Origin: Streptomyces aurantiacus | GTDB taxonomy: Bacteria; Actinomycetota; Actinomycetes; Streptomycetales; Streptomycetaceae | Reading direction: 5' to 3' | DNA length: 64,000 bases | NCBI RefSeq assembly: GCF_027107535.1 | Contig: NZ_CP114283.1 | Location: forward strand, 4,402,001 to 4,466,000 | In this document: positions 8,023 to 36,844 of the stretch, one piece after another | Position numbering within the stretch: position 1 is the stretch's first letter | Layout of the letters: each line of letters opens with the position of its first letter | The notes under the pieces: generated by a model | Told to the model about the DNA's origin: nothing | The model's database searches: none | Seen by the model: only the letters and a program-made list of their open reading frames with translations | Program-made: the position numbers and the translations under genes

Positions 8023-8265
8023 AAAGCGAGATGTCTCACGGGGGGAATGAATCGAAGTCCCGCAGTGGCTGCAGGGTTTGCGCAGGGATGTCGTGGAACG
8101 CTGAATTCTCAGTGGTGTTGCGAAAGTGCCGGGCTTACCGTCAAACTCGTCGGCGCGAGCCGCGCTCGACTTCCCGTCACGTTCAGCGAACCGGCCGGCG
8201 TGCCGTTTCCACCTTCCAGCCACCGTGAGTTCCGTGGCCTGCAAGAAAGTGTGAATCCGAAGCCC

Positions 8266-17553: not shown

Positions 17554-20500
17554 ATGGCGATCATTTTCCCGCCCGCTCTGCGGGAGTTCATCGAGGTCTG
17601 GGTAGGCGCGAACGTCGCCACCGGTAACGAGGACCGCGGCTTCGACAGCCGTGGTGCCTACAACCGGTTGGCGGACGACATCGACGCGCTGTCCGACGCG
17701 ATGAAGGGAGCGGTCGAGAACGCGGGAAATTCGCTTCCACCGCAGATCGCCAGGGAATTCGTCGCCGCGGTGAAGCTCTTCGTCGACGACTCCGGAGAGA
17801 ACCACCTCGCGAAGTTCGCCACCGAGCTACGGGACATCGGCTCCCGTCAGGTAGACCGGTCGATGAAGCTCTCGGAGGGCAAGTACCAGGTCCTCATCGA
17901 GTTCATCCTGATGAACATCGAACTCGCGCTGATCGCCATACTCTCCATCTTCACCGGCGGTACGTCGCTGGTTGAGATAGCCGCGGCGAAGTCGCGCACC
18001 GCGCTCTCCATCCTGCTGATTCTCCAGCGGATCTCACGCACGATCCCGACCCCGCTCTCGGCGGTGTTCGAAGCGATCCAGGAGGCTTTCGTCACGTTCA
18101 TGGCGCAGGTCATCTCGATGACCGCGCCGGACGACCCGGACCGCCGCCGCAATGACTTCGACTGGATGGACATCGCGCAGTCGGCGGCGGCGGGGGCGCT
18201 GGCCGGGCTCTTCGGTGGCGTTTTCTCCCAGTTCACCAAGCCGTTCGTGAACAAGATCTTCAAGGACAGCCCGGTCTGGAAGGAGGTGGCGGAGCTTCCG
18301 CTCGCCTTCATCAACGAAGGGCAGGCCGAGACCTTCGCGGAGGCGTTCACCACGCTCTTCTTCGAAGGCACGTTCAAGCTCGACCCCGGGACCTTCCTGA
18401 GCGCCGGCACCAGCGGGCTCATCTTCGAGGGTGCCTCGGATATCGCCGAGTTCGGCGGCAAGTGGCTGAACCAGAATTTCTTCCAGAACCATGACTTCGA
18501 CCTGAACGGCGTCAACGACGTCGACGACATCAATGACGTCACGACCGGCGCCGGTGGCCACGGCAACGTGATTCGTCCCCACACGGTGTCCGACGACGGC
18601 TTCTACAATGACGTCTACAACGACCCCTATGACGTACCGGATTCCACCAACTCTCCCCTCCCCTATACCGGTGGCATCGGCATCGGCGAGGGGGGCACGA
18701 CGTCGTTCGTGCCTGATGTCAGCGACGCCGGCGACTTCGGCGATGTCGACTCCGTCAGCGATACGAGTGACGTCAGATTTGCCAACAGAGATTCGTCGGT
18801 CTTCGACAGCGTCAGCGATGCCTCGTCCGTCTCGGACTATGACGGCATCGACGGGTTCGGGCAGCAGGGTCCGACCGACGGGTTCACCCCCGTGTACCCG
18901 GGGCCGGAGGCCGGAGGGGCGGTGACCGGCGGACCCGTGGGAGTGAACGGTACGTCCAAGCCGCCATACTCCGTGTCCCCCTCCTACCTCGACGGCGACG
19001 ACGGGCTCTACGCCGATCCGGAAGGCGTCGTCGCCCGGAACACGCCTCCCACGACCCGCGACGCGAACGGTGAGTCCGTCTTCGACACGCTCAACTTCTA
19101 CGAAGCACCGCCCGCCGGGAACGACTCACCCGCCGACACGCTGCCGAACATCCCCACTGTGGGCACGTCCGCCCCCGGGACACCGTCGTTCACCCCGACG
19201 GCCGGACCGACGTCGACACCAGTCTCCGACTACACGGATGCCGACAGTACGGACGCCGACAGTTCCCTCTCGGACGAGAACCTTGTCGACGATCCGGAGA
19301 GCGCCGAGGCTCCTGCGGGCCGGACGGGGGGCAACAGTGCCCTTTCCGGCCCCGACGAGTCCGTACGGCAACGGACGCCTGACGGCGACTCCGAAGCACT
19401 GCTCGACCAGGACGCGGACACCGACGCGGACGCGGACGCGGATACGGGTGCGAATCCGGATACGAATCCGGACACGGACTCGTCTTCTCGGGCGGACGCG
19501 CCGACAGTCACGCCAGGTATCCCGCCCGCCGCACCGAACGTCACACCGGCCGTACCACCTGCCGCCCACCAGTCGACGGACCCCAGCACGCCGACGGCCA
19601 AGCACTCGACCGCCAACGGCACCTACCCGGCCCAGACGACAGCGCCGCACGGCGGCAAGGCGGTAACGCCTGGCACGGCGGAGCAGGCCGGCACCGGCAC
19701 CCGCACCGACGCGGACATCGACGCCAACGCCCACGCCGACGTCAACGCCGACGCCGTCACCAACGCTCCGACGGAACCGAACCTCGTCCCGGAGACGTCG
19801 GCCCCGGCCGACACCTCCTTGCATCCGTCGACCCCCCTCACGCCGCCGGACCTCGCGTCGGCCCCCGCGACACCCCGTACCGAAGCGGGCGCCCAGCAGC
19901 GGACCACAACCCCGGCCACCACGCCCGAGGGCGAGACAGCGGCCCAGCATGAACGGCCGTACCGAACCGTGCGGACCGAGTCCGAACCCCTGCCGACCAG
20001 TTCGTCCGGTCACCCCCCTGCACCGACAGTGTCCGTGGACGCGCCGCGCAGCCCCGACGCAGTCCCCGACACCCCCGCCGACGTGAGGGAACTGCCACTG
20101 GACGTTCCCGAGGGTGCGTACTTCAGCGCGCCGGCGCCGGCCGATATCCCCGTCAGCAGTTCATCCTCGCCCGGTTCCACCGACTCGATCGACATGATCA
20201 TGGACTGGGAGGACGCCGACGACGCGGCATCGGTCGATGAGTCGATGGCCGACTCGGACGAGTCGCCCGAGCCGCAGCCCTTCACCCCCGAGGAGATCCA
20301 GCATCACCACCAGCTGCTGACGGGCGTCTTCGGGACCGACATCGTGTCCCATCACATCTACCCCGGCCTCCAAGAGGCCATCGCCCGTGTCGATCGGCTG
20401 CGGCAACTCGACCGAGGTCTGCGGGACGGCCCGCTCGACCTGGACGCCGTGACCCGCAGCGTGCTGGGGCTGGACCGTGCCGCGCCGGTGACCGGTGCCC

Positions 20501-23500
20501 AGCGCAGCGAGCTGTTCCGGGTGGCGATGGACGCGGCGGTGGAGTCCGCGGGCAGCCTGGCCGCGCTCGCCGCCTTCCACCTCCAGCTCCGCGGTGTGCT
20601 GTCCCGTTCCCGTGCCATGACCACCGAGAGCGGTGCGGTCCGGGGCCGCAACTGGACGGACACGGTGATCCCGGACCTGGACGCGACGACGGTCGGGAGA
20701 TCCGTCCAGCAACCCGACAACAATGCCGATGCCGATGCCGACGACCTCGACGACACGATCGTGCGCACCGACGTCCGTACGGCTCCCTGGCACCGGCCCG
20801 GTGGCCCGCGGCCGTACGTGGTGGTCGCGTCGGGCACGCACAAGCACGTCGAGGTACGGGGCTACGACGGCGCCCCGCGCGAGGTGCCGATCGACGTGTT
20901 CGCCGAACTGTTGGCCCTCGATCCGGCGCTGGCGAGCCTCCCCGCGGACGTCCCGGTCGTCCTGCTGATTCCCGGAGCGGGCGCCAGGGGCCTGGACCTG
21001 CCACGCCGGACGGCCGACCGGATCGGCAGGGACACCTGGTCGGCCAACGGCGGTGTGGACCTGGCTCCGCAGGATGACCCGTCCCTGCCGTACACCGTCT
21101 CCCTGTCGTCCGGCGGTGGCCTGCCGCGCGCCGACTGGGTTCGCAGCGCTCCCGGCCAGGTCCTCGACCCCAACGGCCCCGATGGCGGCGAGGACGCTCC
21201 GGCCTGGGAACGCGAGGTGCTGTCCCACACCATCGTCACCGAGAGCGGCCCGATCGGCCGGGGCGTGTTCGACGACGCCGAGGCCCCGTCGAAGATGGAG
21301 GCCCTCCGGCACGCGACGGAGGCGACGGAGCTCTGGCACAGGAACCCCGCCACCGGGGTCTGGACCAAGGACGACAAGCCCGTTCCGTTCGCCGGAAAGC
21401 CGGTGTACGTCTTCGCAGCGCACTCCTGGCCGGGGCAGACGCATCTGCCGACCGAGGCCAAAGAGGGGAACGGGGAAACCGCGGTCAAGGTCGCCCGGAG
21501 CAAGGAAGTCGGCGGACTGCTGAAGCGGCGTCCCAGTCTGGCCGAACTCCCCCCGAACCACGGCGTGTTGATGGAGGCATGCTGGGACGCGGCCCCCGAA
21601 GGTACGACCCGCGCCCGCCGGGACGCTCGTGACGCCTTCGTCCCTGACCCGCTGGCCGTCATCAGTGACGGTCAGCGGACGTCCAACGTGACTGAACGCA
21701 CCGTCTACGGCGGCACCCGCACCGTCGGCCTCCAGCAGTTGCCGGGCCGGGGATGGGTGCACGTCTTGATGACCGACGCGCAGGGCCGACGCGGCCAGTG
21801 GGTGAAGTTCCGGCCGGAACCCGCCGGTGACACGCTGGACGACCGTGCCCGCGCGGCCGGGCTGCACACCGGCCCCGGACCGGTCCGGCCCGAGACCCGG
21901 ACGCGTACGCTGCGCCTCGTCCGTGCTCTGCGCCTGTCACTGGGCGTGGCTGTCGAGGACGAGGCCGGTTACGCGGATCTGCTCCGTGGCATCGGTGAGC
22001 TGGACATGATGCGCGCAACCGATCCCTCGTTCGACGGCTTCGGCCCGTTCACCATGGACCTGTTCGCACGCGCCGCCCGCGCGGACCGGCAGCGGCGGCA
22101 GGGCGTGGCGGACGGCGACCCGGGCTCGGCCCCGACCCCTGAGGCCTACCGTGACCTGCTGCTCGTGGCCGCCGAATCCGCGCACACCAGTCCCGGCACC
22201 GCGCTCAGCGACTTCGTGGCGCTACCTCAGGTCGTCGCCACGGCGCAACGGCTGAGCGGCCTTGCCGACCTGGACGCCCAGGCCGTCTCCGTTCTGCGCC
22301 TGGACGGAGACTCGCCGACGGTGGGGGAGCCCGAGCGGTCACGGCTGTTCTGGGCGACGGCCAAGGCCCTGGAATGGGAGAGCCGGACCTCCGACCCCGA
22401 CGCCCTCACGGCCAAGGTCCTGCACCTGGACCAGCCGGACCCGGTCCGGCGCGCGGACCTCTTGCGACTGGTCGCGCAGGCCGCGGCCGCGGGACGCGAT
22501 GTGGACAGCCCGACGGAGCTGGCCGCGTTCCATCTCGAACTGTTCGGAGCCCTGTCTCCGCAGACCCAGCTCCTGGACGTCAACGGCGAGCCGACGGGCC
22601 GGCAGTGGGCACAGTCCGAGCCGGACGTGAACGTGAAGGTGGACACGAGCCGGGTCATCGTCACCGCACCGCAGCCGGGCGGCGGCATCCGGCCCGTGGG
22701 AGCGGAGCGCACCCCCTGGAAGGCTCCGAACCGGCCCGAGCCGTACATGGTGTGGGCCGGGGGAGGGGCCGACCACATGCTCATGACCCTGCCCGACGGC
22801 TCCCGGCACCGGGTGCCGTACGACGAGGTTGCGGAGCTGCTGTCGCGGGACCCGGTGCTGTCCGACCACCGGCTGGACGTCGATGTCGTACTGACCGTCT
22901 CGAAGGCGGTGCCGACGCCGACGGCGGGATCCTCGACCACGTCTGCGGTGCCAGTGACTGCCAATGTCCCGGGCGCCGATCCGCGAGCCGTCATCAGTGC
23001 CGCGACCGGCCGCGGAGTCTGGGCTTCACGAGGCAGCGCGGGGCTGGGCAAGGTGGGACCGTCGAAGCCGTACGTCCCAGCGTTGCTCCCCACGGTGCCG
23101 GGAGGTGTCGCGGGCGCCGACTGGGGAGTGGTGCGGCCGCGTGATCTCCTCGCGCCGGCCACCGCCGCTTCGACGAGCAACACCGCCGGAACAGAAGCCG
23201 TCACCTTCGGGGACGCGATCACAGCCCCGACCACGGACGCGACCATTGACCCGACCACGGACGCGATCACAGCCCCGACCACGGACGCGATCACCGACCC
23301 GGACCTGACGGTGGCCCTCGTCCCGAAGCCCACCGTTGCGAAGCCCACCGAGTCGGACCCGCCCCCTCCGGACAGCCCGCGTCTCGACCACTCCATGGCG
23401 CCCCCGCCCAAGCGCCGAACCCCGGTCGGTTTCGAGGACGGCAGGCGGATGCCCGGGTACGTCGACGACCTCCCGTCGCTCCTGCCCCCCGAGCTGACCG

Positions 23501-26500
23501 CCGCCGAAGTCGAAGAACTCCTCGCCAATCCCAGCACCTTCGGCCAGAGCACGGTCGTCCTGCGGGGCATCGACGACGCGCTGGACACGATCGACCGCGA
23601 ACTGCGGCGCGGGCGGGAGACCAGGCCCGCCAAGGGCGACACTCAGCTGCTGACCGACCTCCGGCAGACGCTCCGGGACAAGCCGAAGACGCTGGCGGAC
23701 GGAGACGGCCGCCCCTTCCCGTACGTCAACGAGGCCGGAGAAGTCCGTGTCCTGTGGGTCGGAGCGAGGCACTACAGCAACTGGTCCCCGTACAGCGACG
23801 GCCTCGGTGACGCCACCAAGATCGACAGCATGCACAGGGGCGCCGCGACGTTCGGGCTGACCAAGAACATGCAGGCCAACTCCCAGTACGGCCTCGGCGG
23901 TCCGATCGGCCCGGCGGGCACCGCGGTTTTCGGCGGCTTCGGCCGACTCTCCCTGCGGTTCGGCTTCATCAACAAGGTCGGCTACACGCTGTCGGACCAG
24001 CGCATGAACCAGATGGAGACCCGGACGCTCGACGAATCACGGTCGTTCCTGGACGACATCTATTACGAGGTGCGCGTCACGGACGCCACCGGTCGGGTCG
24101 TCACCAACGCCAGCACCAACACCAGTACAGGCTCCGGCGCCAGTACAGGTACCGGCACCAGCGCAAGCACCACCAACACCGGCTCCGCCGCGCCCGCCCA
24201 GTTCGCCTTCGGTATCCACAAGGGGCTCCTCGTCCGGCTGCCCGACAGCGTGCTGAAGATGCCGAAGCCGGGCCGCATCCCCCGGTCGATCGACCTGGAC
24301 CGGAACTCCCAGTACCGCTTCGTCCGGATCGAGGGATTCGGCCCCGTCGCGGCGATCCGGGACTGGGCGGCCGGACGGATCGGCGTACTGCCCGGGAGCA
24401 CGGCCTACACCGAGCTGGACACCTTCTTCTCGGGCGACAGCTTCCAGCGGCACGGCGGCACGATGGCGCGCGGCCGCATCACCACCCCGCCGCTGTTCGC
24501 CGACGACGACAAGAAGTCACCGCTGGGCGTCTTCGTGGTGGAGGAACTGATTCCGCAGACCGCGATGCTCGTCGGAGAGACCGACCAGGCCGAGATGCGG
24601 GACATCAACACATCGACGGTCCGCAGCGAGCGGAGTCGGGCAGAGGGCAAGAGCCTGCTGATGCAAGCCGTCGCCGGACCGGCCTTCAACTTCTTCGACC
24701 CCGGCACGGCCCTCTTCGGCCTACGGCTCCAGGCCGGGCCGACCGCCCAGTACTCGTACGCCAGGACCTGGTCGGCCGGACTCGGCGGGGCAGGCACCCT
24801 CAAGTCGGCCGGACAGGTGAAGGGCCCCAAGACCGCCCTCTACCTGGTGGTGAAGTCGGTACGGGTGCGGCAGGCCGGCGACAACGCGCCGCCGACGCGG
24901 TTCCTCACCTGGAGCCTGGACCGGATGACCAGTGCCGAGGCGCGCCGGCTGGCCGGATGGGACGACGGGACCCGGCTCGCGCTGCGCAACGGCGTCGCCC
25001 CGCCCTTCGCACCGGCCTATCTGACCGTGGACCGCCCGCGGACCCTGGGCATGCACCGGGTGAAGGAGTTCACCTTCGACGACGGGCTGCGCACCCGGGT
25101 CACACCGGACGCGGCGGACGGCGTGGGCCGCACCCTGCTGGACGAGTTCGCCGACGGCGTGGTGAAGGGCATCGCGCAGCGACGGCAAGGGCTGGTGGTG
25201 CCACTCGACCAGCTGCTGCCGCCGAACCTGCCGAAGAGCTGGCGCGCCCGCTTCAACGATGTGCTCGCGCGCAAACCGGACGAGGTGCTCGACGCGGCCC
25301 GGAGCCTGCCCATGCCGCCCCAGTGGGGGGATCCCGTCAAGTACCGGATCGCGCTCCAGAACACCCTGCAGATCCTGGGTGTGCTGTCGCAGCAGAACAT
25401 CACCGCGAACCTGGAGGCGCTGACCACGGTCGGCCTGCCGATCAGACTCACGGACCCCGACGCCGTCGGACAGACCTACTACACGCTGCGGGTGTACGGG
25501 ACGCTGACCGGGCGGCGGTACGAGGGCAAGGACGTCCACGAGGGAATGCGCTTCAGCGCACAGGGCATAGACCGGCTCGACGGTCAGATGAGTTCGAAGC
25601 GAGGCGTGGACCTGGGCTTCGAAGGGACGCTCTCGGGACGCGACAACGCCGTCGACGGCGCCGGACTCCGCCACAACGTACTCGGGCTGACCCTGGGCGG
25701 CCGCAAGGGATGGCAGCGGGAGTCGGAGATCTCCTTCGGTTCGACGGTCACCAACGAGCCGATGTCGGTGAGCAACCAGCCCACTCATCTGTACCGCTTC
25801 GACATCGGTCTCACCGCGACCCTGAGCGGATACTGGCGACCCCGCGGTCTGATCCGCGGCGTCGGCCTCGGGCTGCCGGGACTGCTGGTCCTGGACGAGC
25901 CGGTGAACGTGCTCTTCGGCCGGCGGACGACGCCGGGCCCCCTGCCGGGCGGCGGTCCGGTGACCGGACAGGTGCTCATCGGTGTCCCCGTACAGCACGC
26001 CCCCGCCGCGGACCCGTACGCGGACGGGGCGCTCAACCCCTACCTGTCCGACGAGCCCGCTCCCACGCCCATGAACACCGAGCGGGCCCTCGCGCTGGCG
26101 AAGGGCAGCCTCGTACTGCCCGCGGGTGCCGGAAAGGGACAGCCCGCCCGACGGCTCGCCGAGCGCGGGACACAGCAGTTCAAGGAGTTCCAGCAGCACC
26201 CGTTCGTGATCGTGAACATGGTTCTGTCGCCCACGCTGACCGCGGAGGTGGACCGGGTCCTGAAGACGGCGTCGGGCAGCGCCTGGCAACTGGTGAAGGA
26301 GGGCGCCCCCACCCGGGAGGCGATTGTCCGTACCTTCACTCCCCAGTACCTGGCGGCGAGCTTCGACCAGAGCTCGGGGCCGCTCGGCCTGGTGGGCAGC
26401 GGCCTGCTCGGCAAGGGGCCGTTCGGCGAGCTGTGGGGAACCTATCGGTACGCGACGACGGTCGGGGACCTGCACGCCCTCACGCCGTCGATGTCCATGG

Positions 26501-29500
26501 ACACCGAGATGACGCTCGGCGGCACCCGGCAGGCCGCCGGCAAGACCAGCAACAGCACCAGCCTCGTCTTCGGCGGTCAGCTCGTCTATGCCGTCGCCCA
26601 GAACCCCGGACACGGGATCATGGGTACGTACGGAATCGTCGCCAACCCTTTCTCGACGTCCCGCGCGCACAGTGTCAGCGTCGTACGGACGGTCGTCGCG
26701 GACACGAACCGCAAGGGCTTCACCCACCAGGTGCTGGTGGCCGCCGACGTGGATCACTGGTTCGCGCTGACCTCCAGCCGGCTGGGGACGGGCCGGATCG
26801 GGACAGCCGCAGCGGGCAGTGCCCTCGTACCGCGCTCGCTCGCCGGAGCGGCGGGCACAGAGCTGACGAGCCCGGGCGGTCTGCTGGGGCATCTGCCGGA
26901 GAAGAGCGCACACCGGCTGGGGCTGCTCGACGACGGCATGGGTGAGGTCCCCCGCTACACGCGGCAGCAGTGGACGCCGCAACCCTGGCTGCGTGACGCC
27001 GCCTTCGGCACCTACGCGGTGAACGCGCTCGATCCCACCGAGGTGCTGCTCGCGTTCGACCGGCGCATCGGGGAGCTGGGACTCGACGACGAGAGCCGGG
27101 AGAGGATCCGGCAACTGGTGACGGCCCGTGCCACGCGGGCCCTCAAGGGGGAGATGACAACCACCGGCCCGTCGACGATGGTCACCGCCGGAGGCTGGGG
27201 CTGGGACAGCGTACGGATCGGCAGCAGGCGGGTGCGGGTACGGGTCGAACTGATCCCCGGGACGCCCACGTTCGACGGGCTCGACCACAGCGCGGAGCTG
27301 GAGGAGAACCGGCGGGCCATCGAGACCTCCCAGACGAACTCGGAGTACTCGTCCGGGGCGGACGTGGGGCTCCTGACCAGCCAGATGGTGTACACCGGCA
27401 ACGCGACTGTCCCGGGCGCCGGACCGTCGTACACCGAGAGCGGATCACACCGGCAGACGGTCGCGTCGAGCCACGCGGTCACCACCGTCACGATCTACCG
27501 GGCGGCGTCCACCGAACCCCATGCGGAGACCGTCACCCCGTACCGGATGCGGATCACTCTGGAAGCGGACAACACCCCCGACACCGGCGTTCCGGCCGAC
27601 TCCGGCGGCAAGTCGGGGAAGGGCCCGACGAGGAATTCGCAGCACGGGAAGGCCACGGCGCTGGACCGCTTCCGGGGTCGGCTGCGCATCGTCGAGGAGG
27701 ACGACGTCGGTGAGCTGCGCGAGCACGTGCCGCTCAGTCTGATGGAGCCGGCTCGGTCGGAGCCGGCGCATGGAACGCTGCTGCCCGCGCCCGATCCGGC
27801 GGCCGATCCCGCCCTGGCCGCTCCGCCCCGGAGGGTGCCTCTTCCCGAGGTGCGCAAGGCGGGCGAGGAGCTCCTGATCCGGGACGGGGAGGGCGTGACG
27901 AAGCCGTTCACCTTCCCCGAGAACGGTATGCACCCCCGCGGGATCGTAGGCATCCAGAACATCCGCGTCGCGAACGACCTCCTCCTCCTGCAGGCGTACG
28001 ACACGGGCTACTCCTCCCACGCCCTCAAGGCCAAGGACGACGCCAAGAACGGTGCCGAAAACGGTTCCGACGCCGCCGCCGACGCGGCCGCCCTCACCGA
28101 ACTCCTCCGCAAGAGCAGAGAAACCGGTCTGACCCGGCTGGGCACCGGTTCGGCGCAGGCGCTGGAGGACGGCACCAGCACCATGGCGGTCACCTCGTTC
28201 TACCCGCGCACCACCGAGCCGGACGGCTACCAGGTGGTGGGGCTGACCGAGAAGTCCTTCATCGGCACCGACACCGGACAGCTGAGCCTGCGCTCGACAC
28301 CCGACTTCAGCCGCGCACTGCTGCTGACAGTCGCCGACGGCAAGAAGCTGGAGGTGCTCAAACGGTACGGGGAGAACGCAGGCACGTCCTCGTCCGGTGA
28401 GCACACCCAGAGCGGGAGCTTCGGCGGCGCCTTCCTGTACGACTCGCCCGCCAACGCGGGCCTCAACCAGATCGGACTCTTCGGTCCCGGCCCCAACGAC
28501 CTCGACGGCGACGGGATGCCGGTCGGGGACGACCACCTGACCTCGCGCAACCTCAAGCCCAGGACCGACCGGTCCTTCCTGTTCGCCGTCCCGAACACCT
28601 GGCTGAGCGTCGGTGACGTGCACCGGAACATCGTGGACTCGAAACTCGCGAACAAGGTCCGCAGCGGGACCTTCGGCAAGGCCAGGCCGGGGCCGCAGGC
28701 GATGGAGTCCAAGGCGTACGTCGTCGCCTGGATCCGGGAGGACGTCGCCCGCAAGCTGAAGCTCATCAGCGACGTGAACTTCCCCGAGGGCGTCAAGAAG
28801 GCGTGGGACGCGGTCGGCAGCGCGAGCAAGGCGTGGGTCGAGGCCGACAAGGCCTACTGGAAGAAGCGGCGGGCCTCCGGTCACCTGCGCAGGGACCTCG
28901 ACGCCGCGCAGGCCGCCCTCGACCAGGCCGCCGGGATCGCCCGCGCCGCGGCGCGCCCGGTCGACCTCGCCCAGGCTGAGGCCGACGCCGCGGACACGGC
29001 CCTGCGGCAGGCCGAGAACGACGCGCGCCGGGACCACGGTCTCGCGGACGCGAGGGTGGCCGCCGCGCAGGCCGAAGCCGACGCGTTCGCCGAGAACGAG
29101 GACGGCGCCGAACCCGAACACGAGGGCTGGGCGCAGCTCCTGCGGGACGAACAGGACGCCGTCCGGGCCCGCTTGGCCGAAGCGACCGCGGCTGCCGACC
29201 AAGTGCGGAAGACGGCCGATCTACGGCTCGACACCGCGCGTAGGGAGAAGGCCGAAGACGACGAGCGGCTCGACACTGCCCTGCTGTCCGCGCGAGCGCC
29301 CGGCCAGAAGTTCGACGACGCCACCGCACGCCGGAACACGGCACGCGACGCCTTCGACACCCGGCGCGCCGAGCTGGACGAACTGAGGGCCGCGGCGGAG
29401 AAGGCCGCGGCGGAATACCACCGGGTACGGGCCGGGACGGACCAACTCACCCGCTGGCACCGGCTCGCGGCCACCGAGGAGGGCCGGGAGCAGCTGGACG

Positions 29501-32500
29501 GCCTCGCCGAGCCGCCCGCGGTGACCTACCAGGCCCCGCCGAGGGCACCCAAGCCGTCGTCCCCGGCGCCGCCCCGCTACACCAGGACGGGTACGGGGGC
29601 GGACACCGTGCTGACGGCTCCCGCGTCACCCGCGTCGCCTGTGCAGACTGTGCCGTCTGCGACCTCGGCGCGGGCGACGTACACGCTGCACGACGTGCCG
29701 AGGGACGGTGACGCGTTCCTCCGCGCGCTCGCCCTCGGCCTGGAACACGCCTCCCCGGGGCTGCTGGCCGCGGAAGGCATCGACCTCGACGATCCGCGGG
29801 CGATGTCCGAACTGCGCCGGAAAATGGCCTCCTGGCTCACCGACCACGCCGACGAGGACCTCCTGGCCGCCGTCGCCCCCGACCACACCGACACTTTCAG
29901 CGCGGACGAGACAGCCGCGGCGGGCCTGGACCTCGGCACGGACACGCCGGCCCGCCGCGAGTTCGACGCCCTCGACGGTCTCATCCCGCACGCCGTCAGC
30001 CTGAGCCCCGCGACACGGGCCGAGCTGGCGATCACGCAACTCCTCCGGCAGGGCGACGCCGCGTCCGAGACCGGCTGGGACCACTCCGCGGCGGACCTGC
30101 TCCCGCTGCTCGCCGCCCGGACCTTCGGCGTACGCGTCACGGTGGTCCGGAGCGACGGTGGCTTCCAGGACTTCACTCCCGAGAACCCGAGGGGAGAAGG
30201 CAACCTTCAAGGGCTCGTCGAGAATTCCGGGCGCCCCGGCGCGCATGTGGTGCTGAGCCTTGACGATCGCCACTACCAGCTGGCACTGCCGACCGGCCGG
30301 ACACCGCTGACGGATCTAACGGATCAGACGGATCCGACGGATACGCAACCTACGGACGACAAGAAGGGCTCGGAAGAGCAGAACTCGGAAGACAAGGGCT
30401 CGGAGGAAAGCTCGGAGGAAAAGGGCTCTGACAACAAGGTCGGCGTTGAGAAGGGCAGCGTTGAGAAGGACAGCGTCGAGAAGAGTGGCGTCGAGAAGGG
30501 CTCGGACGACAGGAACGCCGAGCCGTCGACGACCGACAGCGTCCGTGCGAGGGGCCACCGCGTACGCGTGCCCGCCACAGGTGAGTGCCTCCTCTACTCC
30601 TTCATGGCAGGCGACCCCACGCACCTCCGAAACCGGCTGAGCAGCCTCGCCACCACCGACCCCGAGGCCTACCTCTGGCTCGAAGATCCCGCTGCGGTAC
30701 GCGATGAACTGCGCCGCCAGGCCACGATCCGCTCCAGGACCGGCAAGCTCCCGACCGGCCCACCGCATGTGGTGCTCCAGGCCATGCGGTCCTTCGTGGA
30801 GGACTACGTAGTGCGCAGCGAGGGCCGGCTGCATCCGCAGATCGTCGGCCAGTTCCGGCAGACGGTCGCCGATGCGTTCGGGACACGCGTCACGGGAATG
30901 AACCGGGCCGAGAGACTCGCCCAACTCGCCCACCACGGCGTCCAGCACATCCCCGTACCGGAGGCACTCGACCCCACCGAACTGCAGCGACGGTACGTGG
31001 CCGCGCGCGTGGCATCGGAAACCGCAGCCCCGGACCCGAGCATCTCCGCGCGGGACGCCCGGGCCGTGCAGGAGGCGTACGCCGAGGACCTGAGTCCGCG
31101 CCAGATGTTCGAGTACCTCCAGGAACACGGTCTGCTGCCGACGCCCGACGACCTCGATGACGGCGCCCTGGGCCGCCTGCTCCAAACCGTCTACTCGGAG
31201 AGCGCCGCGCCGCTGGACGACCAGGAACTGCCCACGCTCCTGGAAGCCGTCCTCAACTGGGAGCAGCGCTGGGGGACAGCGGCGGGAGAGATCTTCCTGC
31301 CTCTTCTGGCGCACGCGTTCAACACACGGGTCGATGTGGTGCAGGCGCTCCCGTCAGGCACCCGACGGGTCAGCCGTGCGGGGCCCGACAACGCCCTGCG
31401 GCAGACGGAGGTCTACTACAACGGCGTCAACCACTACGACGGCAGCGACGCCGCACCCCGCGACGGGTTCGGCAACTCGGTCCTCCCGAAGCGCATCAAG
31501 GACGAGGAAAAGGACCAGAAGGGCGACATACGGCTGAACCCTCTGTGGGTTCCGCTGGACGAGGTGGACCCGAACCTATTGATCACCGGGAACCGGGACG
31601 CGGTGTGGCTGTACACGGTCACCGATGACGGGCGGGTGATCGTGGGCACGGAGCAACTGAGCGGGATCGTCACGGAGGAGCAGTTCGACGCGTTGCTGGC
31701 GGGCATGCGGGAGAACGATCCCGATCTGACGGCGGAGTCGCTGCGCCAGGCGATGGACGGGCTGGGCCACACGGGCATCGCAGCCGGTTTCGTCGAGCCT
31801 GATCCCGCGGGCGCTGATCCCGCGAAGGCCGGTCGGACGCTGCCGGGGCGCAGCCGGGTGTCCGGCGAGTTCCGCTGGAACGCAGAGCTGAACTCCTGGG
31901 TGGTGAACGACAAGTCGGGCCGCTACATGAGCGAGTCGGTGCGGCCGGGCCTGGACCCCGCGGAAGCCGCCGCCTGGCTGGCCAATGTGGCGGCCCTGTT
32001 CAGCGACCGACTGGGTGTCGTCGTCCGGCCCGACCAGGTGAAGACGGCCGCGCCCGTCCCGGCACCTCTGCTGCCGCCACCGCCCCCGATCCCACCGACT
32101 GAACCTCCGGCTCCACCGACGGCCCCCTTGGTGTCCGTACCGCCGCCTGCACCGGAGGCACCCGCAGCGCCTGAGCCGGACCCGTCGACCCGCGTCCCCG
32201 AGGCCGAACACGACGCGGACCGGACCAATACCGATCCGATCCAGCGCCGGCGGATCGCAGAGCTGGCCGAGCAGATCGTGATGTCCGGCCTGAGCGACCT
32301 AAGGGCCGGCCTCCGCATCCCCCGTATCACGATCACCGGCTACAGCAACGGTCAGCGCTTCGCGTTGTTCGGCGGCGCGGTGGAGGACGCGGAGACGGTC
32401 GGCCGGCAACGGGCGGACGCCGTGCGGGACCTCCTCCTCGACGAGATCCGGCATCAGCTGGAGCTCAACGAGCGTGCTGTGCGCGACGTCCGGGAGGTAC

Positions 32501-35500
32501 GGGGCGGCCCGGTCCGGGCCGAGGACTTCCCGATCACCACGGAGAGCGGCGGCCGGGACATCAGTGCCGTCGGCCCGATCGACGGCGCCGCCGGACGGGC
32601 TGCGCGACAACAGGCAGCGATCACGGTCGACCGGTCACCCCTGTCGGCCGCCGCCGCCCGGCTCGAAGAGCTGAGTCCGGGGTCTTTCGGTCCGGAGAAG
32701 TCTGCTGCCGACCTGGACGCGCTCGCCCAGGACATCCTGCACCTGAACGACGACCTTGCGGACGACGTCGAAGACGACCCTGAACCGGACAACGAGTCCG
32801 ACGGCTCCACGATTTCGGACGCAGTTGAGCGGGACAGCGAATCCGAGGGGTCCATAGATCCGGACGAGGTGGTGTCCGACAACGAGTCCGACGGGTCCAT
32901 TGATCCCGACGAGGAAGTGGTGTCGGACGACGAATCCGAGGGAGCCATTGATCCCGACGAGGAGGTGGTGTCGGACGAGGAGCCTGAAAGCTCTGTGGCC
33001 GACTTCGACTCCGACTCCGACGGCACTGACGTCGGCGGTGTCCGCGACGTCGCCGATGGACCGCCGGGTGCGTCTCACGCGCCCGACGACCCCGCTCCGG
33101 AAACCATCCGCTTCGACGTCGACGACCTGTCGGACCAAGCGCGCACGCTGTACGAGCTGGTGGACGAGTCGATGGCGGCCGGGAGAGCGACGAGCCGGGC
33201 GGCGTTGAGTTCGTACTACCTGGGCAAGCAGGGCCTGTTGTCCGACGCCACTCGCCTGACCGCGCAGGACGGCACCCCGGCGGGGCGGAACTGGACGGGC
33301 CGGCCTGTCCAGGATGTGGACGCGTCCTCGTACGACAACGCGGGCGAGAAGCGTGAACCCCGGCCGGCGCTGTGGGCACAGGATCCGAGTGCGCCCCATC
33401 CGTATGTGATCGGGACGAAGGGCGGCGACCACCGGAGCGTCATTCTGGCCCTGCCGGATCGCAGCAAGCGGTGGAGGCTGTCGTCGCAGGAGTTCGCCGA
33501 ACTGCTGGCCTTGGACGAAGACCTGACCGGTCGTGATGACGCCACCCGGGTGGTGCTCGTCTCGCCGAAGGCCGGCGCCCAGGGGCTGGACCTGCCGCGC
33601 AGGGCCGCGGCCCGGGTGCGCAAAACGCTGTGGTCGCACAGCGGTGAGGTCGGCATGAAGCCGAACCAGGACACCGGCCGGCACCGCATCGAGGTGACCG
33701 ACAACCTGGATCTGGAAGTCGCGGCGACGGGCGAGTGGATCGGCAGCAAGCCGGACGATCTGGGGTCGGACCCCGAGCGGACCGGGCCCGGGGAAGGCGT
33801 TCTGCGGACGAGCGACGGAAGAACGCTCCAGGACGAGGCGATCAGGAGTTTCACCCTCACCGTCGCGGGATGGCCCGTCGGCCGTGCCGTGTTGAGCGGC
33901 GCCGATCAGATGCAGCGTGAGTCGTATCTCCAAGCGATGATCCGGTCGACGGAGTGGTACAGCTACGACCCGGTCACCGGTAAACAGATCGGACCTCCCC
34001 GACCGGTGCCGTGGAAGGGCCTGAAACCGTACTTCTATGTCGGCCACGGTCTGCCGGGGCAGACCATCCTGGTGGAAGACGAGCTGGAGAGCGAGGTTCT
34101 GGTTCGTGGACCTGAGACCGGCCACCTTCTCCGACGGCGCCCGAGCATGCAACAACTCGACCCGAACACGCCCATCGTGTTCCTGTCCTGCTGGGGAAGC
34201 GAGCGGGAGGGGAACGACGCCGCCCCTGAAATATGGAGTCGCCCGTTCGTCACTGATCCGCTCGCCGTCCTGTCGGCGGCCCAGGGCGTCTCCAATACGA
34301 CGAGGCGCGACGTCTACGCCCCCAGCAGGGTGCACACGACTGTTGAAAAGGGCGGCGAACTACTGCACCACGGGATCACCACCACGCCGGTGAACGACCC
34401 GGTGTACATGGAGAAACTGCGCCCCGAGCCGACCCCGGACGAACTCGACACCCTGGCCGAGCAGGCCGGCCTGGAGACGTCCTCGGACTTCACCCCGGCC
34501 ATGGCCAGGTACACGACGCTGAGGCTGGTCCGGGCCCTCCGGATCACGTTCGGCGTCGATGTGGAGAGCGACAAGGACGACCCGGTCGGCACGTACCAGG
34601 GGTTGCTGCGCGGTATCGGCGCCTTGGAGGTCATGCGCCGCAGGGACGAGAAGCTGCGTGGGTACGGGGAACTGACGCTCGATCTGCTCGACCGGGTCAC
34701 GCGCGGACACCACGGCCTGACGACCGCCCCCGGTACCCGGCCGGCATCGCTGGACCCCGCCGACGTACGGACGATGCTGGAAGCGGCGTCGGCACGGCTG
34801 TCCGCCGACCGGCAGTCCACAGGTCAGCCGTCCACCTTGCCGGACTTCCTTGCGCTGCCCTCCGTGGACCGGGCCCGCGAACTGATCGAAAAGGGCGATC
34901 CGGACCGGTGGGTCCGCCGAGTTCTGAGGCTGATCGACTCGACTCAGATCACCGCGGACGACCGGCAGAACGCGCTGTGGGCCACGGTCAAGGCCGTGGA
35001 AAGCGTGGAGAACCATCCCGACCCCGACGCCCTGACGACGAAGGTGCTCCATCTGGCCAACGGTGAGAATCCGCAGGACGAGGTTCTGCGGGCGAACCTG
35101 CTGCAGTTGGCGGCCATGACGGCGGCCCTCGGCCGCAACGCCTACGATCCAACGGTGCTCGCCGCGACCGACCTCCAACGTCACGGGGCGCTGAGCGACA
35201 CCACTCAAATCATCTCCGCGGAGGGCCGGAAGGCCGGGCGCCGTTGGACAGGGAAGCCCTTGAGGCTTCCCCTCTGGGCGGACGGCTACGAGACGTCACC
35301 CAGCGGCGAGCTGCTGGGCGCCCGGCCGTCCTCCGCACCCTGGTCCAAGAGGGGATTCGGAAGGTCGTCCCGTCCCGGCGGATACGTGCTGGACATGAAG
35401 GGCACGACCCCCGGACAGGTGGAGATGCCCTGGCCGGACAGGACCACCCGCTCGGTGCCCTACGCGGAGATCTCCGAACTGCTCTCCTACGACACCACCC

Positions 35501-36774
35501 TGGCGGAACTGGGTCTGGACGTCGCGATCGTCCCCGTCGGCGTGGATTCCGGGACCGTCGACCTGGCCACGTCACTCGCGGCCCGGACCGGGACCGCCCG
35601 GACCGTCTGGGTGCCGGAACACCCACTCCGACTCGTCGAGCGTCCGACGTCGAACGAGACCGTTCTCCTCATGACCTCGCAGATGTTCAACGCGACGCAC
35701 TGGTCACAGATACGTCCGCCTGAGTTGCCCGACCAGCCCGACCAGCCCGACCAGCCCGACCAGCCCGCCGAGTCCACTTCAGCCACCGCCACCGTCAGCT
35801 CGCTCGTCGGATCCGCCCCCGGTGTCGTCACGAACCGAGGCGACACTCCACCCCGGGCGCCTGTCGGCTTCAAGTCCACCTGGACCGGTGGGGATATCGG
35901 TGAACGGCGCCCGCCACGGCTGGGCCGCGACGGAATCACGAGGGCGGGAGGCGAGCGGTACAGCAGCAGCGTCGACAGCAGCGGCACGGACGCCACCATC
36001 AGCGAGGAGGCCACGGGCCGGACCGTGCAGGCGCACTCGAAGCCGGCCCCTGCCCCGGACACGAGCCCCGAGCCGAACCCGGACCCGGCAGAGGCCCTGG
36101 TGGGACTCGTCGGCCCGGACGACAGTGCGTACGACCCGGCCCCGCGACGCGGCTCCGTCGACCTCGACCTCGACCTCGACCTCGACCTCGACCTCGACGT
36201 GGAGCACGTACCCGTCGTCCCCCGTGACGACGCCCAACGCCAGTGGGTTGCGAGGCAGGTGACGACGGACGATCTGCCAGGGAATCCGCCGAGGGTCGAC
36301 CGTGCCGCCCTCGCGAGCCCGGCCGATCTGAGGGCGGCGGGCGTCGCGATGACCCCCGGAATGGACGTCGAGGTGCAACTAGGCGGAGGCGTACGTGGCA
36401 GCGGGCTGGCACCGCTCGACCAGGTGCGGCTGCTGCTGACCCGCCCCGGCCCGTGGCCCGACGTGCTCGACGCCGTCGCGGCGGCGGTGTCGCGGCGGAT
36501 CTGGCGGTCGGCGTTCACGGACTTCCAGAGCGCGATCTCGACCGGGGGCACGGACGTGGACGCCGCCAAAGCATGGAAGGCGGCCGTCGGACTGGTTCTG
36601 CCGCACGAACCGCACGACGTACTGGCGGATTCCCGGTACGCGGGGGAGGAATTCCGCGACGCGGTGCGGCAGATCGCCGACCACCTGGCAGCGGGACGGA
36701 CGGACCTGCGGACGGTCGCGCAACTCGCCGCCCAGCTCCGGCGCAACCTCGGACCAGAACTAGGCCGTTTCTGA
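17554..36774 (+). CDS. Giant 'lonely Cys'-type ESX-linked multidomain protein (6406 aa)
   Basis: One open frame of 19.2 kb. Residues 1-~320: WXG100-like helical and membrane-active N-terminus (LALIAILSIFTGGTSLVEIA). ~320-900: acidic and Pro/Thr linker. ~905-1790 and ~5180-6000: two copies of a large module sharing 'GLDLPRR', 'LT.KVLHL' and a His...Cys pair (His1290/Cys1343; His5498/Cys5546), resembling CHAT/caspase-fold (clan CD) peptidases. ~1958-3700: long beta-rich region of unknown type. ~3750-3976: coiled coil. ~4039-4246: OTU-like domain with Ala4054 in place of Cys but His4240 present. ~4333-4646: second OTU-like domain with Cys4345 and His4627. ~4900-5030: OmpA-like 'VGRQRADAVRDLL'. 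The end is a helical domain finishing in 'LGPELGRF'. A secreted or surface effector is likely; activity is untested. Confidence 0.85.
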   Translation: MAIIFPPALREFIEVWVGANVATGNEDRGFDSRGAYNRLADDIDALSDAMKGAVENAGNSLPPQIAREFVAAVKLFVDDSGENHLAKFATELRDIGSRQVDRSMKLSEGKYQVLIEFILMNIELALIAILSIFTGGTSLVEIAAAKSRTALSILLILQRISRTIPTPLSAVFEAIQEAFVTFMAQVISMTAPDDPDRRRNDFDWMDIAQSAAAGALAGLFGGVFSQFTKPFVNKIFKDSPVWKEVAELPLAFINEGQAETFAEAFTTLFFEGTFKLDPGTFLSAGTSGLIFEGASDIAEFGGKWLNQNFFQNHDFDLNGVNDVDDINDVTTGAGGHGNVIRPHTVSDDGFYNDVYNDPYDVPDSTNSPLPYTGGIGIGEGGTTSFVPDVSDAGDFGDVDSVSDTSDVRFANRDSSVFDSVSDASSVSDYDGIDGFGQQGPTDGFTPVYPGPEAGGAVTGGPVGVNGTSKPPYSVSPSYLDGDDGLYADPEGVVARNTPPTTRDANGESVFDTLNFYEAPPAGNDSPADTLPNIPTVGTSAPGTPSFTPTAGPTSTPVSDYTDADSTDADSSLSDENLVDDPESAEAPAGRTGGNSALSGPDESVRQRTPDGDSEALLDQDADTDADADADTGANPDTNPDTDSSSRADAPTVTPGIPPAAPNVTPAVPPAAHQSTDPSTPTAKHSTANGTYPAQTTAPHGGKAVTPGTAEQAGTGTRTDADIDANAHADVNADAVTNAPTEPNLVPETSAPADTSLHPSTPLTPPDLASAPATPRTEAGAQQRTTTPATTPEGETAAQHERPYRTVRTESEPLPTSSSGHPPAPTVSVDAPRSPDAVPDTPADVRELPLDVPEGAYFSAPAPADIPVSSSSSPGSTDSIDMIMDWEDADDAASVDESMADSDESPEPQPFTPEEIQHHHQLLTGVFGTDIVSHHIYPGLQEAIARVDRLRQLDRGLRDGPLDLDAVTRSVLGLDRAAPVTGAQRSELFRVAMDAAVESAGSLAALAAFHLQLRGVLSRSRAMTTESGAVRGRNWTDTVIPDLDATTVGRSVQQPDNNADADADDLDDTIVRTDVRTAPWHRPGGPRPYVVVASGTHKHVEVRGYDGAPREVPIDVFAELLALDPALASLPADVPVVLLIPGAGARGLDLPRRTADRIGRDTWSANGGVDLAPQDDPSLPYTVSLSSGGGLPRADWVRSAPGQVLDPNGPDGGEDAPAWEREVLSHTIVTESGPIGRGVFDDAEAPSKMEALRHATEATELWHRNPATGVWTKDDKPVPFAGKPVYVFAAHSWPGQTHLPTEAKEGNGETAVKVARSKEVGGLLKRRPSLAELPPNHGVLMEACWDAAPEGTTRARRDARDAFVPDPLAVISDGQRTSNVTERTVYGGTRTVGLQQLPGRGWVHVLMTDAQGRRGQWVKFRPEPAGDTLDDRARAAGLHTGPGPVRPETRTRTLRLVRALRLSLGVAVEDEAGYADLLRGIGELDMMRATDPSFDGFGPFTMDLFARAARADRQRRQGVADGDPGSAPTPEAYRDLLLVAAESAHTSPGTALSDFVALPQVVATAQRLSGLADLDAQAVSVLRLDGDSPTVGEPERSRLFWATAKALEWESRTSDPDALTAKVLHLDQPDPVRRADLLRLVAQAAAAGRDVDSPTELAAFHLELFGALSPQTQLLDVNGEPTGRQWAQSEPDVNVKVDTSRVIVTAPQPGGGIRPVGAERTPWKAPNRPEPYMVWAGGGADHMLMTLPDGSRHRVPYDEVAELLSRDPVLSDHRLDVDVVLTVSKAVPTPTAGSSTTSAVPVTANVPGADPRAVISAATGRGVWASRGSAGLGKVGPSKPYVPALLPTVPGGVAGADWGVVRPRDLLAPATAASTSNTAGTEAVTFGDAITAPTTDATIDPTTDAITAPTTDAITDPDLTVALVPKPTVAKPTESDPPPPDSPRLDHSMAPPPKRRTPVGFEDGRRMPGYVDDLPSLLPPELTAAEVEELLANPSTFGQSTVVLRGIDDALDTIDRELRRGRETRPAKGDTQLLTDLRQTLRDKPKTLADGDGRPFPYVNEAGEVRVLWVGARHYSNWSPYSDGLGDATKIDSMHRGAATFGLTKNMQANSQYGLGGPIGPAGTAVFGGFGRLSLRFGFINKVGYTLSDQRMNQMETRTLDESRSFLDDIYYEVRVTDATGRVVTNASTNTSTGSGASTGTGTSASTTNTGSAAPAQFAFGIHKGLLVRLPDSVLKMPKPGRIPRSIDLDRNSQYRFVRIEGFGPVAAIRDWAAGRIGVLPGSTAYTELDTFFSGDSFQRHGGTMARGRITTPPLFADDDKKSPLGVFVVEELIPQTAMLVGETDQAEMRDINTSTVRSERSRAEGKSLLMQAVAGPAFNFFDPGTALFGLRLQAGPTAQYSYARTWSAGLGGAGTLKSAGQVKGPKTALYLVVKSVRVRQAGDNAPPTRFLTWSLDRMTSAEARRLAGWDDGTRLALRNGVAPPFAPAYLTVDRPRTLGMHRVKEFTFDDGLRTRVTPDAADGVGRTLLDEFADGVVKGIAQRRQGLVVPLDQLLPPNLPKSWRARFNDVLARKPDEVLDAARSLPMPPQWGDPVKYRIALQNTLQILGVLSQQNITANLEALTTVGLPIRLTDPDAVGQTYYTLRVYGTLTGRRYEGKDVHEGMRFSAQGIDRLDGQMSSKRGVDLGFEGTLSGRDNAVDGAGLRHNVLGLTLGGRKGWQRESEISFGSTVTNEPMSVSNQPTHLYRFDIGLTATLSGYWRPRGLIRGVGLGLPGLLVLDEPVNVLFGRRTTPGPLPGGGPVTGQVLIGVPVQHAPAADPYADGALNPYLSDEPAPTPMNTERALALAKGSLVLPAGAGKGQPARRLAERGTQQFKEFQQHPFVIVNMVLSPTLTAEVDRVLKTASGSAWQLVKEGAPTREAIVRTFTPQYLAASFDQSSGPLGLVGSGLLGKGPFGELWGTYRYATTVGDLHALTPSMSMDTEMTLGGTRQAAGKTSNSTSLVFGGQLVYAVAQNPGHGIMGTYGIVANPFSTSRAHSVSVVRTVVADTNRKGFTHQVLVAADVDHWFALTSSRLGTGRIGTAAAGSALVPRSLAGAAGTELTSPGGLLGHLPEKSAHRLGLLDDGMGEVPRYTRQQWTPQPWLRDAAFGTYAVNALDPTEVLLAFDRRIGELGLDDESRERIRQLVTARATRALKGEMTTTGPSTMVTAGGWGWDSVRIGSRRVRVRVELIPGTPTFDGLDHSAELEENRRAIETSQTNSEYSSGADVGLLTSQMVYTGNATVPGAGPSYTESGSHRQTVASSHAVTTVTIYRAASTEPHAETVTPYRMRITLEADNTPDTGVPADSGGKSGKGPTRNSQHGKATALDRFRGRLRIVEEDDVGELREHVPLSLMEPARSEPAHGTLLPAPDPAADPALAAPPRRVPLPEVRKAGEELLIRDGEGVTKPFTFPENGMHPRGIVGIQNIRVANDLLLLQAYDTGYSSHALKAKDDAKNGAENGSDAAADAAALTELLRKSRETGLTRLGTGSAQALEDGTSTMAVTSFYPRTTEPDGYQVVGLTEKSFIGTDTGQLSLRSTPDFSRALLLTVADGKKLEVLKRYGENAGTSSSGEHTQSGSFGGAFLYDSPANAGLNQIGLFGPGPNDLDGDGMPVGDDHLTSRNLKPRTDRSFLFAVPNTWLSVGDVHRNIVDSKLANKVRSGTFGKARPGPQAMESKAYVVAWIREDVARKLKLISDVNFPEGVKKAWDAVGSASKAWVEADKAYWKKRRASGHLRRDLDAAQAALDQAAGIARAAARPVDLAQAEADAADTALRQAENDARRDHGLADARVAAAQAEADAFAENEDGAEPEHEGWAQLLRDEQDAVRARLAEATAAADQVRKTADLRLDTARREKAEDDERLDTALLSARAPGQKFDDATARRNTARDAFDTRRAELDELRAAAEKAAAEYHRVRAGTDQLTRWHRLAATEEGREQLDGLAEPPAVTYQAPPRAPKPSSPAPPRYTRTGTGADTVLTAPASPASPVQTVPSATSARATYTLHDVPRDGDAFLRALALGLEHASPGLLAAEGIDLDDPRAMSELRRKMASWLTDHADEDLLAAVAPDHTDTFSADETAAAGLDLGTDTPARREFDALDGLIPHAVSLSPATRAELAITQLLRQGDAASETGWDHSAADLLPLLAARTFGVRVTVVRSDGGFQDFTPENPRGEGNLQGLVENSGRPGAHVVLSLDDRHYQLALPTGRTPLTDLTDQTDPTDTQPTDDKKGSEEQNSEDKGSEESSEEKGSDNKVGVEKGSVEKDSVEKSGVEKGSDDRNAEPSTTDSVRARGHRVRVPATGECLLYSFMAGDPTHLRNRLSSLATTDPEAYLWLEDPAAVRDELRRQATIRSRTGKLPTGPPHVVLQAMRSFVEDYVVRSEGRLHPQIVGQFRQTVADAFGTRVTGMNRAERLAQLAHHGVQHIPVPEALDPTELQRRYVAARVASETAAPDPSISARDARAVQEAYAEDLSPRQMFEYLQEHGLLPTPDDLDDGALGRLLQTVYSESAAPLDDQELPTLLEAVLNWEQRWGTAAGEIFLPLLAHAFNTRVDVVQALPSGTRRVSRAGPDNALRQTEVYYNGVNHYDGSDAAPRDGFGNSVLPKRIKDEEKDQKGDIRLNPLWVPLDEVDPNLLITGNRDAVWLYTVTDDGRVIVGTEQLSGIVTEEQFDALLAGMRENDPDLTAESLRQAMDGLGHTGIAAGFVEPDPAGADPAKAGRTLPGRSRVSGEFRWNAELNSWVVNDKSGRYMSESVRPGLDPAEAAAWLANVAALFSDRLGVVVRPDQVKTAAPVPAPLLPPPPPIPPTEPPAPPTAPLVSVPPPAPEAPAAPEPDPSTRVPEAEHDADRTNTDPIQRRRIAELAEQIVMSGLSDLRAGLRIPRITITGYSNGQRFALFGGAVEDAETVGRQRADAVRDLLLDEIRHQLELNERAVRDVREVRGGPVRAEDFPITTESGGRDISAVGPIDGAAGRAARQQAAITVDRSPLSAAAARLEELSPGSFGPEKSAADLDALAQDILHLNDDLADDVEDDPEPDNESDGSTISDAVERDSESEGSIDPDEVVSDNESDGSIDPDEEVVSDDESEGAIDPDEEVVSDEEPESSVADFDSDSDGTDVGGVRDVADGPPGASHAPDDPAPETIRFDVDDLSDQARTLYELVDESMAAGRATSRAALSSYYLGKQGLLSDATRLTAQDGTPAGRNWTGRPVQDVDASSYDNAGEKREPRPALWAQDPSAPHPYVIGTKGGDHRSVILALPDRSKRWRLSSQEFAELLALDEDLTGRDDATRVVLVSPKAGAQGLDLPRRAAARVRKTLWSHSGEVGMKPNQDTGRHRIEVTDNLDLEVAATGEWIGSKPDDLGSDPERTGPGEGVLRTSDGRTLQDEAIRSFTLTVAGWPVGRAVLSGADQMQRESYLQAMIRSTEWYSYDPVTGKQIGPPRPVPWKGLKPYFYVGHGLPGQTILVEDELESEVLVRGPETGHLLRRRPSMQQLDPNTPIVFLSCWGSEREGNDAAPEIWSRPFVTDPLAVLSAAQGVSNTTRRDVYAPSRVHTTVEKGGELLHHGITTTPVNDPVYMEKLRPEPTPDELDTLAEQAGLETSSDFTPAMARYTTLRLVRALRITFGVDVESDKDDPVGTYQGLLRGIGALEVMRRRDEKLRGYGELTLDLLDRVTRGHHGLTTAPGTRPASLDPADVRTMLEAASARLSADRQSTGQPSTLPDFLALPSVDRARELIEKGDPDRWVRRVLRLIDSTQITADDRQNALWATVKAVESVENHPDPDALTTKVLHLANGENPQDEVLRANLLQLAAMTAALGRNAYDPTVLAATDLQRHGALSDTTQIISAEGRKAGRRWTGKPLRLPLWADGYETSPSGELLGARPSSAPWSKRGFGRSSRPGGYVLDMKGTTPGQVEMPWPDRTTRSVPYAEISELLSYDTTLAELGLDVAIVPVGVDSGTVDLATSLAARTGTARTVWVPEHPLRLVERPTSNETVLLMTSQMFNATHWSQIRPPELPDQPDQPDQPDQPAESTSATATVSSLVGSAPGVVTNRGDTPPRAPVGFKSTWTGGDIGERRPPRLGRDGITRAGGERYSSSVDSSGTDATISEEATGRTVQAHSKPAPAPDTSPEPNPDPAEALVGLVGPDDSAYDPAPRRGSVDLDLDLDLDLDLDVEHVPVVPRDDAQRQWVARQVTTDDLPGNPPRVDRAALASPADLRAAGVAMTPGMDVEVQLGGGVRGSGLAPLDQVRLLLTRPGPWPDVLDAVAAAVSRRIWRSAFTDFQSAISTGGTDVDAAKAWKAAVGLVLPHEPHDVLADSRYAGEEFRDAVRQIADHLAAGRTDLRTVAQLAAQLRRNLGPELGRF
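20281..22910 (+). repeat. Giant-protein module, first copy (lonely Cys / CHAT-like)
   Basis: Encodes 'LLALDPALA', 'GARGLDLPRRTADRIGRDTW', then His1290 in 'YVFAAHSWPGQ', 'LKRRPSLAEL', Cys1343 in 'MEACWDAA', 'DPLAVISDGQRTSNVT', 'LRLVRALRLSLGV', 'LTAKVLHL' and a second shorter half ending near 'VVLTVSK'. All these landmarks recur in the same order ~12.6 kb downstream, showing an internal duplication. Confidence 0.85.
33100..35540 (+). repeat. Giant-protein module, second copy (lonely Cys / CHAT-like)
   Basis: Landmarks: 'LLALDEDLT', 'GAQGLDLPRRAAARVRKTLW', His5498 in 'FYVGHGLPGQ', 'LRRRPSMQQL', Cys5546 in 'FLSCWGSE', 'DPLAVLSAAQGVSNTT', 'LRLVRALRITFGV', 'LTTKVLHL'. The His-Gly and Ser-Cys contexts here are closer to CHAT/caspase active sites than in the first copy. 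DNA identity is low enough that the duplication must be old. Confidence 0.85.
35731..35766 (+). repeat. Four 9-bp repeats encoding Asp-Gln-Pro
   Basis: GACCAGCCC four times in a row in the linker after the second lonely-Cys module; a slippage-prone spacer whose length may vary between strains. Confidence 0.9.
36160..36195 (+). repeat. Six hexanucleotide repeats encoding Asp-Leu
   Basis: GACCTC six times in the linker near the C-terminus of the giant protein, giving an (Asp-Leu)6 tract. In-frame contraction or expansion would not disrupt the gene. Confidence 0.92.
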
Positions 36775-36844
36775 TGGCTCTTGGGGGCTAGGGCGTGTCC
36801 GATGGGTCCTGTGACTCGCCTTGCGCTGGATCGTTTCGGTCCGT

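Follow-up and report, generated by a model that had tools for sequence, protein, structure and literature searches.

A giant lonely_Cys protein of Streptomyces with two predicted caspase-like peptidase modules set among degenerate copies

The stretch of Streptomyces aurantiacus DNA analysed here (the window, 64,000 nucleotides; assembly GCF_027107535.1, contig NZ_CP114283.1, positions 4,402,001 to 4,466,000) holds a single open frame for a giant protein with only three cysteines, at residues 1343, 4345 and 5546, and raises the question of what so rare a residue does there. Two of the three lie in regions that belong to the NCBIfam family NF012197, lonely_Cys (707 positions, curated cut-off 200 bits), whose name states no enzyme. 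An initial annotation of the sequence had proposed that a His-Cys pair in each region marks a CHAT- or caspase-fold peptidase, and that the protein may process itself after secretion. The reading we favour, at a probability of roughly 70%, is that of a secreted giant carrying two caspase-like peptidases between degenerate copies of the same domain, which would cut the protein in its own linkers after export.

All four motifs of the proposed dyads, and the DPLAV that follows each, sit in the frame of the giant exactly as first described, with 53 residues from His to Cys in module 1 and 48 in module 2. As judged by alignment, the two modules are homologues, since residues 1200-1443 and 5408-5645 reach a local score of 296, against at most 65 in 200 shuffles. 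In the predicted model of module 1, strand 85-93 holds the His (model residue 91) and the Cys (144) comes right after strand 138-143; in that of module 2, strand 238-245 has the His (243) near its end, and strand 286-290 immediately precedes the Cys (291). Both models are caspase-like alpha/beta folds showing the clan CD order anticipated from the motifs: the His sits at one strand, and the Cys comes straight after a later one. Because of this placement, the score between the modules and the matches to NF012197 (850.3 and 608.3 bits), the dyad modules stand beyond chance. Pfam has no family above cut-off across either lonely_Cys stretch.

Structural comparison places clan CD as the nearest fold to both models, nearly all of the VIA neighbours listed being clan CD. 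C80-type protease domains come out best, together with Tce1, and SAVED-CHAT is tied within one Z unit; Foldseek on its own was not decisive for either module. In the viral library BFVD, the sole match at E up to 1e-3 was a phage minor capsid protein fragment (A0A8S5P2H5), aligned with the module 2 model over 142 columns (Foldseek E 3.6e-5). A clan CD fold with a His-Cys dyad is well supported by these predictions, and we consider it very probable; that the modules are active peptidases is probable, at a lower level of confidence. The first reading of the modules as CHAT/caspase-fold peptidases is supported, as far as predicted models go.

The dyad is conserved among relatives. A family search found this protein family in 10 of 100 genomes, the source genome included, all of one genus, and a scan of genome_contigs yielded 68 further loci, titled Streptomyces in 66 cases, [Kitasatospora] papulosa in one and Streptacidiphilus in one. 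A search of the forward frames of 98 loci with the live-module profile (four loci being fragments of the genome that holds the window; minus-strand matches in L002, L007, L013, L018 and L028 were not read on that strand) gave 252 rows. Both positions are covered in 172, of which 157 are distinct: His and Cys occur together in 143, neither in 12, and His without Cys in 2. The 143 rows, among them the window's two, form 103, 59, 31 and 22 clusters at 90, 70, 50 and 40% identity, and the His stands 43-59 residues ahead of the Cys (47 in 97 rows), in line with the order and the spacing of some 45-55 expected of clan CD. In 78-row alignments the dyad His, the dyad Cys and one Pro are the only invariant columns; those rows were picked from the rows with His and Cys, and the weight for conservation therefore rests on the 143 of 157. 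One live-type module, at residues 355-584 of the L089 frame, keeps its His (DGHG) and has Arg in the Cys position; it is possibly a recently dead copy.

Ahead of each live module lies a copy of the same domain that lacks the His/Cys pair, and a further degenerate copy follows each. The live and degenerate profiles matched each other in a single comparison with a probability of 97% (E 2.3e-11), a score that none of 40 permuted controls reached. The degenerate profile picks up all four degenerate copies but gives no more than weak matches to the live modules (0.54 and 0.028); with the live profile, two of the degenerate copies are clear matches (8e-5 and 6.6e-7) and two are weak ones (0.081 and 0.25). 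At the Cys column of 315 distinct rows of the degenerate profile, which include some live copies, the commonest residues are Pro (168), Ser (48) and Cys (25). In the predicted model of module 2, the degenerate copy (residues 5280-5383) and the live one have their strands and helices in the same order, by our own comparison.

Which known family stands closest? The C80 domains of MARTX and clostridial toxins are the best structural neighbours and share the His-then-Cys order of the TcdB dyad as given in the relevant part of PMC13323088, but identity is roughly 7-13% over the aligned parts and Pfam gives no match. Neither Peptidase C80 (PF11713) nor CHAT (PF12770) is among the 14 Pfam families found at E up to 1 for the 78 members. 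For CHAT, SAVED-CHAT and Craspase are among the fold neighbours, and His and Cys align with the window type in a profile comparison that none of 40 permuted controls equalled; its probability, however, is 1.66%. CHAT as the nearest family was accordingly dropped, on sequence comparison (1.7%) and not on fold. One of 40 permutations (133.9) reached the real score between the DUF4347 type and CHAT, and that pair was given no weight.

The link to DUF4347 is closer. Five more distant live modules (L009, L010, L016, L017 and L020, of the 78 members) match this Pfam family, at best E 9.9e-6 and with one of the five above cut-off, whereas the window modules themselves have no match to it (PF14252) in Pfam. 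Profiles of the window type and the DUF4347 type agree with a probability of 95% (E 1.6e-8; none of 40 permuted controls), His falling on His and Cys on Cys. Among 61 genomes searched, 6 have DUF4347 matches (4 above cut-off), all in another family of the same order and in open frames of about 4,500-5,200 residues. DUF4347 is also contained in PA0256, according to the part of PMC8262886 concerned; the corresponding parts of PMC13323088 rename this type VI secretion system effector Tce1, describe its C-terminal part solved in complex with Hcp3, align its His186/Cys240 with the TcdB dyad, call the enzyme putative and report yeast growth unaffected by it. Sequence searches against solved structures returned no match for module 1 alone or for the A2 profile, and those with a DUF4347-type homologue and the A4 profile were discarded as designed trefoils and other chance matches, the best trefoil match (1.7e-4) covering a 19-residue stretch downstream of the module.

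If the two lonely cysteines are nucleophiles, cysteine should be scarce elsewhere, and it is. Seven neighbouring genes have 43 Cys in 4199 residues, a rate at which the giant would be expected to hold 65.6 against the 3 observed. In a same-genus census of the giant and eight relatives (69,204 residues, stop-to-stop frames, G053 in part only), 46 Cys divide into 20 at live-module positions, 9 in OTU-like motifs and 17 elsewhere; G049 by itself accounts for 8 of these last, and G057 for 4. In the other family, four DUF4347-type giants (G062, G065, G067 and G070; 20,559 residues) have 19: 8 in modules, 4 in one conserved GEGDC motif and 7 elsewhere, of which 6 lie no further than residue 82 of their open frames. 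The raw scripted count was 85 Cys in 85,537 residues (26 module, 7 OTU, 52 other); L168 and L170 were dropped from the census as frames separate from the giants, and one G053 Cys (GSGECLLF), scripted as other, was counted as OTU by eye. An earlier census, which takes in stretches that look out of frame, had 130 module Cys among 211 distinct Cys contexts (204,890 distinct residue contexts, 92 frames). The surviving cysteine of such giants is often the predicted nucleophile, which suggests a simple rule for locating active sites.

The third cysteine of the giant, Cys4345, lies in one of two stretches that resemble OTU peptidases in their motifs, as judged by eye; family searches named no OTU family for residues 4043-4250 or 4330-4640. 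The pair (window 29680-31473) shows, by eye, a dead-then-live pattern as in the clan CD modules. Outside the live modules and OTU motifs, four giants carry a Cys in a conserved STEE(I/V)CRDFA. In the other family, one Cys is common to the DUF4347-type giants and lies in GEGDCTVASL, which we take to resemble a papain/calpain-type nucleophile motif.

Export is suggested by the neighbourhood. Genes for EccC, EccD and EccB of a type VII secretion system lie just upstream, and in 6 of 7 relatives homologues of all three occur within the 20 kb that precede the giant (in one of these, G057, EccC is cut by the edge of the stretch); the seventh, G056, showed none on its 33-kb contig. A search for a type VII secretion system in the 68 genome_contigs loci, with flanks of up to 6 kb and largely inside the giants, found none. 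The N-terminus scores below the WXG100_2 cut-off of 27 bits in the window and above it in the G029 homologue (31.8 bits). Most likely, the giant is exported by the type VII system encoded just upstream.

The sequence, its conservation, the degenerate copies, the predicted fold, the depletion of cysteine and the gene neighbourhood are established, and a mechanism may be proposed on them. Once the giant has been exported by the type VII system or delivered, the live module of each lonely_Cys unit (His1290/Cys1343 and His5498/Cys5546), placed right after one degenerate copy and some 300 residues ahead of another, would cut the linkers of the giant and set its parts free, a job like that of the cysteine protease domains in MARTX and TcdB. 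The degenerate copies would probably act as scaffold, substrate-binding or regulatory partners. Whether such self-processing is the main role of the modules is evenly balanced in our estimation.

The strongest competing explanation is that the modules are clan CD peptidases acting on proteins of other cells rather than on the giant. OTU-like motifs occur in such giants too; for caspase-like domains, both roles are proposed in the relevant parts of Zhang et al. 2012 (PMC3482391); and, in the part of PMC13323088 concerned, the type VI secretion system effector Tce2, a companion of Tce1 whose dyad is of the same kind, impairs the growth of yeast, an effect lost on mutation of its predicted active site. 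The modules, however, are internal, repeated and beside degenerate copies, an internal position is tied to processing in the same parts of Zhang et al., and no target is known, so that we regard an effector role as possible and the less likely of the two. A clan CD fold serving a structural, peptide-binding or acyl-transfer (ligase-like) purpose would fit the degenerate copies, which keep the fold without His and Cys, and the asparaginyl peptide ligases among the fold neighbours; nearly all live copies nevertheless retain both residues and cysteine is depleted elsewhere, as expected for a nucleophile, making this improbable. A coincidental pairing of His and Cys in a fold unrelated to clan CD is very hard to reconcile with the clan CD neighbours of both models, the conservation across rows and the DUF4347 link to Tce1.

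Giants of this class are already known in silico, and the idea of processing was printed in 2012. The parts of Zhang et al. (PMC3482391) that bear on it report giant Streptomyces toxins with caspase-like domains in arrays, where some of the domains lack catalytic residues; they propose multiple self-cleavage and note OTU domains in such proteins. Our giant resembles these in size, in its probable type VII export, one of their routes, and in several caspase-like copies, some dead, a likeness in described architecture; a cysteine census was not seen in the parts concerned. A literature search on the lonely Cys domain found no paper in the library searched, and no title or abstract start among those listed linked it to caspase-like domains. 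Equating lonely_Cys with these arrays, and the census, seem unprinted within the literature searched. An uninformative family name in this way gains a testable prediction of enzyme function for certain very large bacterial proteins, with two residue pairs named for mutation and live and dead copies side by side. More speculatively, the lonely_Cys unit, which resolves here into two clan-CD-like copies, one degenerate and one live, might be a built-in pair in which the dead partner is zymogen-like or substrate-guiding; giants of up to 12,000 residues, secreted by type VII systems, might dismantle themselves stepwise, and near-total loss of Cys away from nucleophile sites might reflect life outside the cell, with only indispensable thiols kept.

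Table 1. Features of the giant protein and its neighbourhood (window coordinates), with conserved cysteines in related frames.
Feature	Residues	Position	Strand	Basis
EccC-type FtsK/SpoIIIE ATPase of type VII secretion system		3934..7923	-	
EccD (with YukD domain)		8047..9663	+	
EccB		9682..11160	+	
Giant protein, 6406 residues, 3 Cys		17554..36774	+	open frame
WXG100-like N-terminal segment	24-145	17623..17988	+	Pfam, 22.1 vs cut-off 27 bits
NF012197 lonely_Cys match 1	944-1671	20383..22566	+	850 bits
Degenerate copy, no His/Cys pair	1083-1178	20800..21087	+	degenerate profile i-E 6.9e-42; live profile 8e-5
Live clan-CD-like module 1	1233-1428	21250..21837	+	predicted fold, profile match
AAHSWPGQ, module 1		21415	+	in-frame motif
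His1290, predicted catalytic	1290	21421..21423	+	motif, conservation
MEACWDAA, module 1		21571	+	in-frame motif
Cys1343, predicted nucleophile	1343	21580..21582	+	motif, Cys census, conservation
DPLAV, module 1		21646	+	in-frame motif
Degenerate copy after module 1	1717-1833	22702..23052	+	live profile i-E 6.6e-7 (1717-1833); degenerate profile 2e-15 (1727-1785)
OTU-like degenerate stretch (RDGDAFL, Ala where Cys expected)	4043-4250	29680..30303	+	by eye
OTU-like peptidase stretch, Cys4345 (TGECLLYS) and NHYD	4330-4640	30541..31473	+	by eye
NF012197 lonely_Cys match 2	5194-5884	33133..35205	+	608 bits
Degenerate copy	5280-5383	33391..33702	+	degenerate profile i-E 1.2e-34
Live clan-CD-like module 2	5441-5631	33874..34446	+	predicted fold, profile match
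VGHGLPGQ, module 2		34039	+	in-frame motif
His5498, predicted catalytic	5498	34045..34047	+	motif, conservation
FLSCWGSE, module 2		34180	+	in-frame motif
Cys5546, predicted nucleophile	5546	34189..34191	+	motif, Cys census, conservation
DPLAV, module 2		34255	+	in-frame motif
Degenerate copy after module 2	5941-6040	35374..35673	+	degenerate profile i-E 7.4e-16
STEE(I/V)CRDFA Cys	L148 5156, L151 572, L154 4778, L156 3523			frame pieces
GEGDCTVASL Cys	L163 505, L166 595, L167 513, L169 513			frame pieces

Ahead of the second lonely_Cys unit, residues 4945-5060 (window 32386-32733) look OmpA-C-like by eye (GRQRADAVRDLL), and the stretch is conserved in the relatives L032-L034. At the other end, a transposase frame of IS4/5 type (DUF4096; window 36774-37357) starts about 50 bases past the stop of the giant. 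Its insertion may have altered the tail of the protein, because the frames of the close relatives L031 and L032 extend 14-18 residues beyond the last aligned residue.
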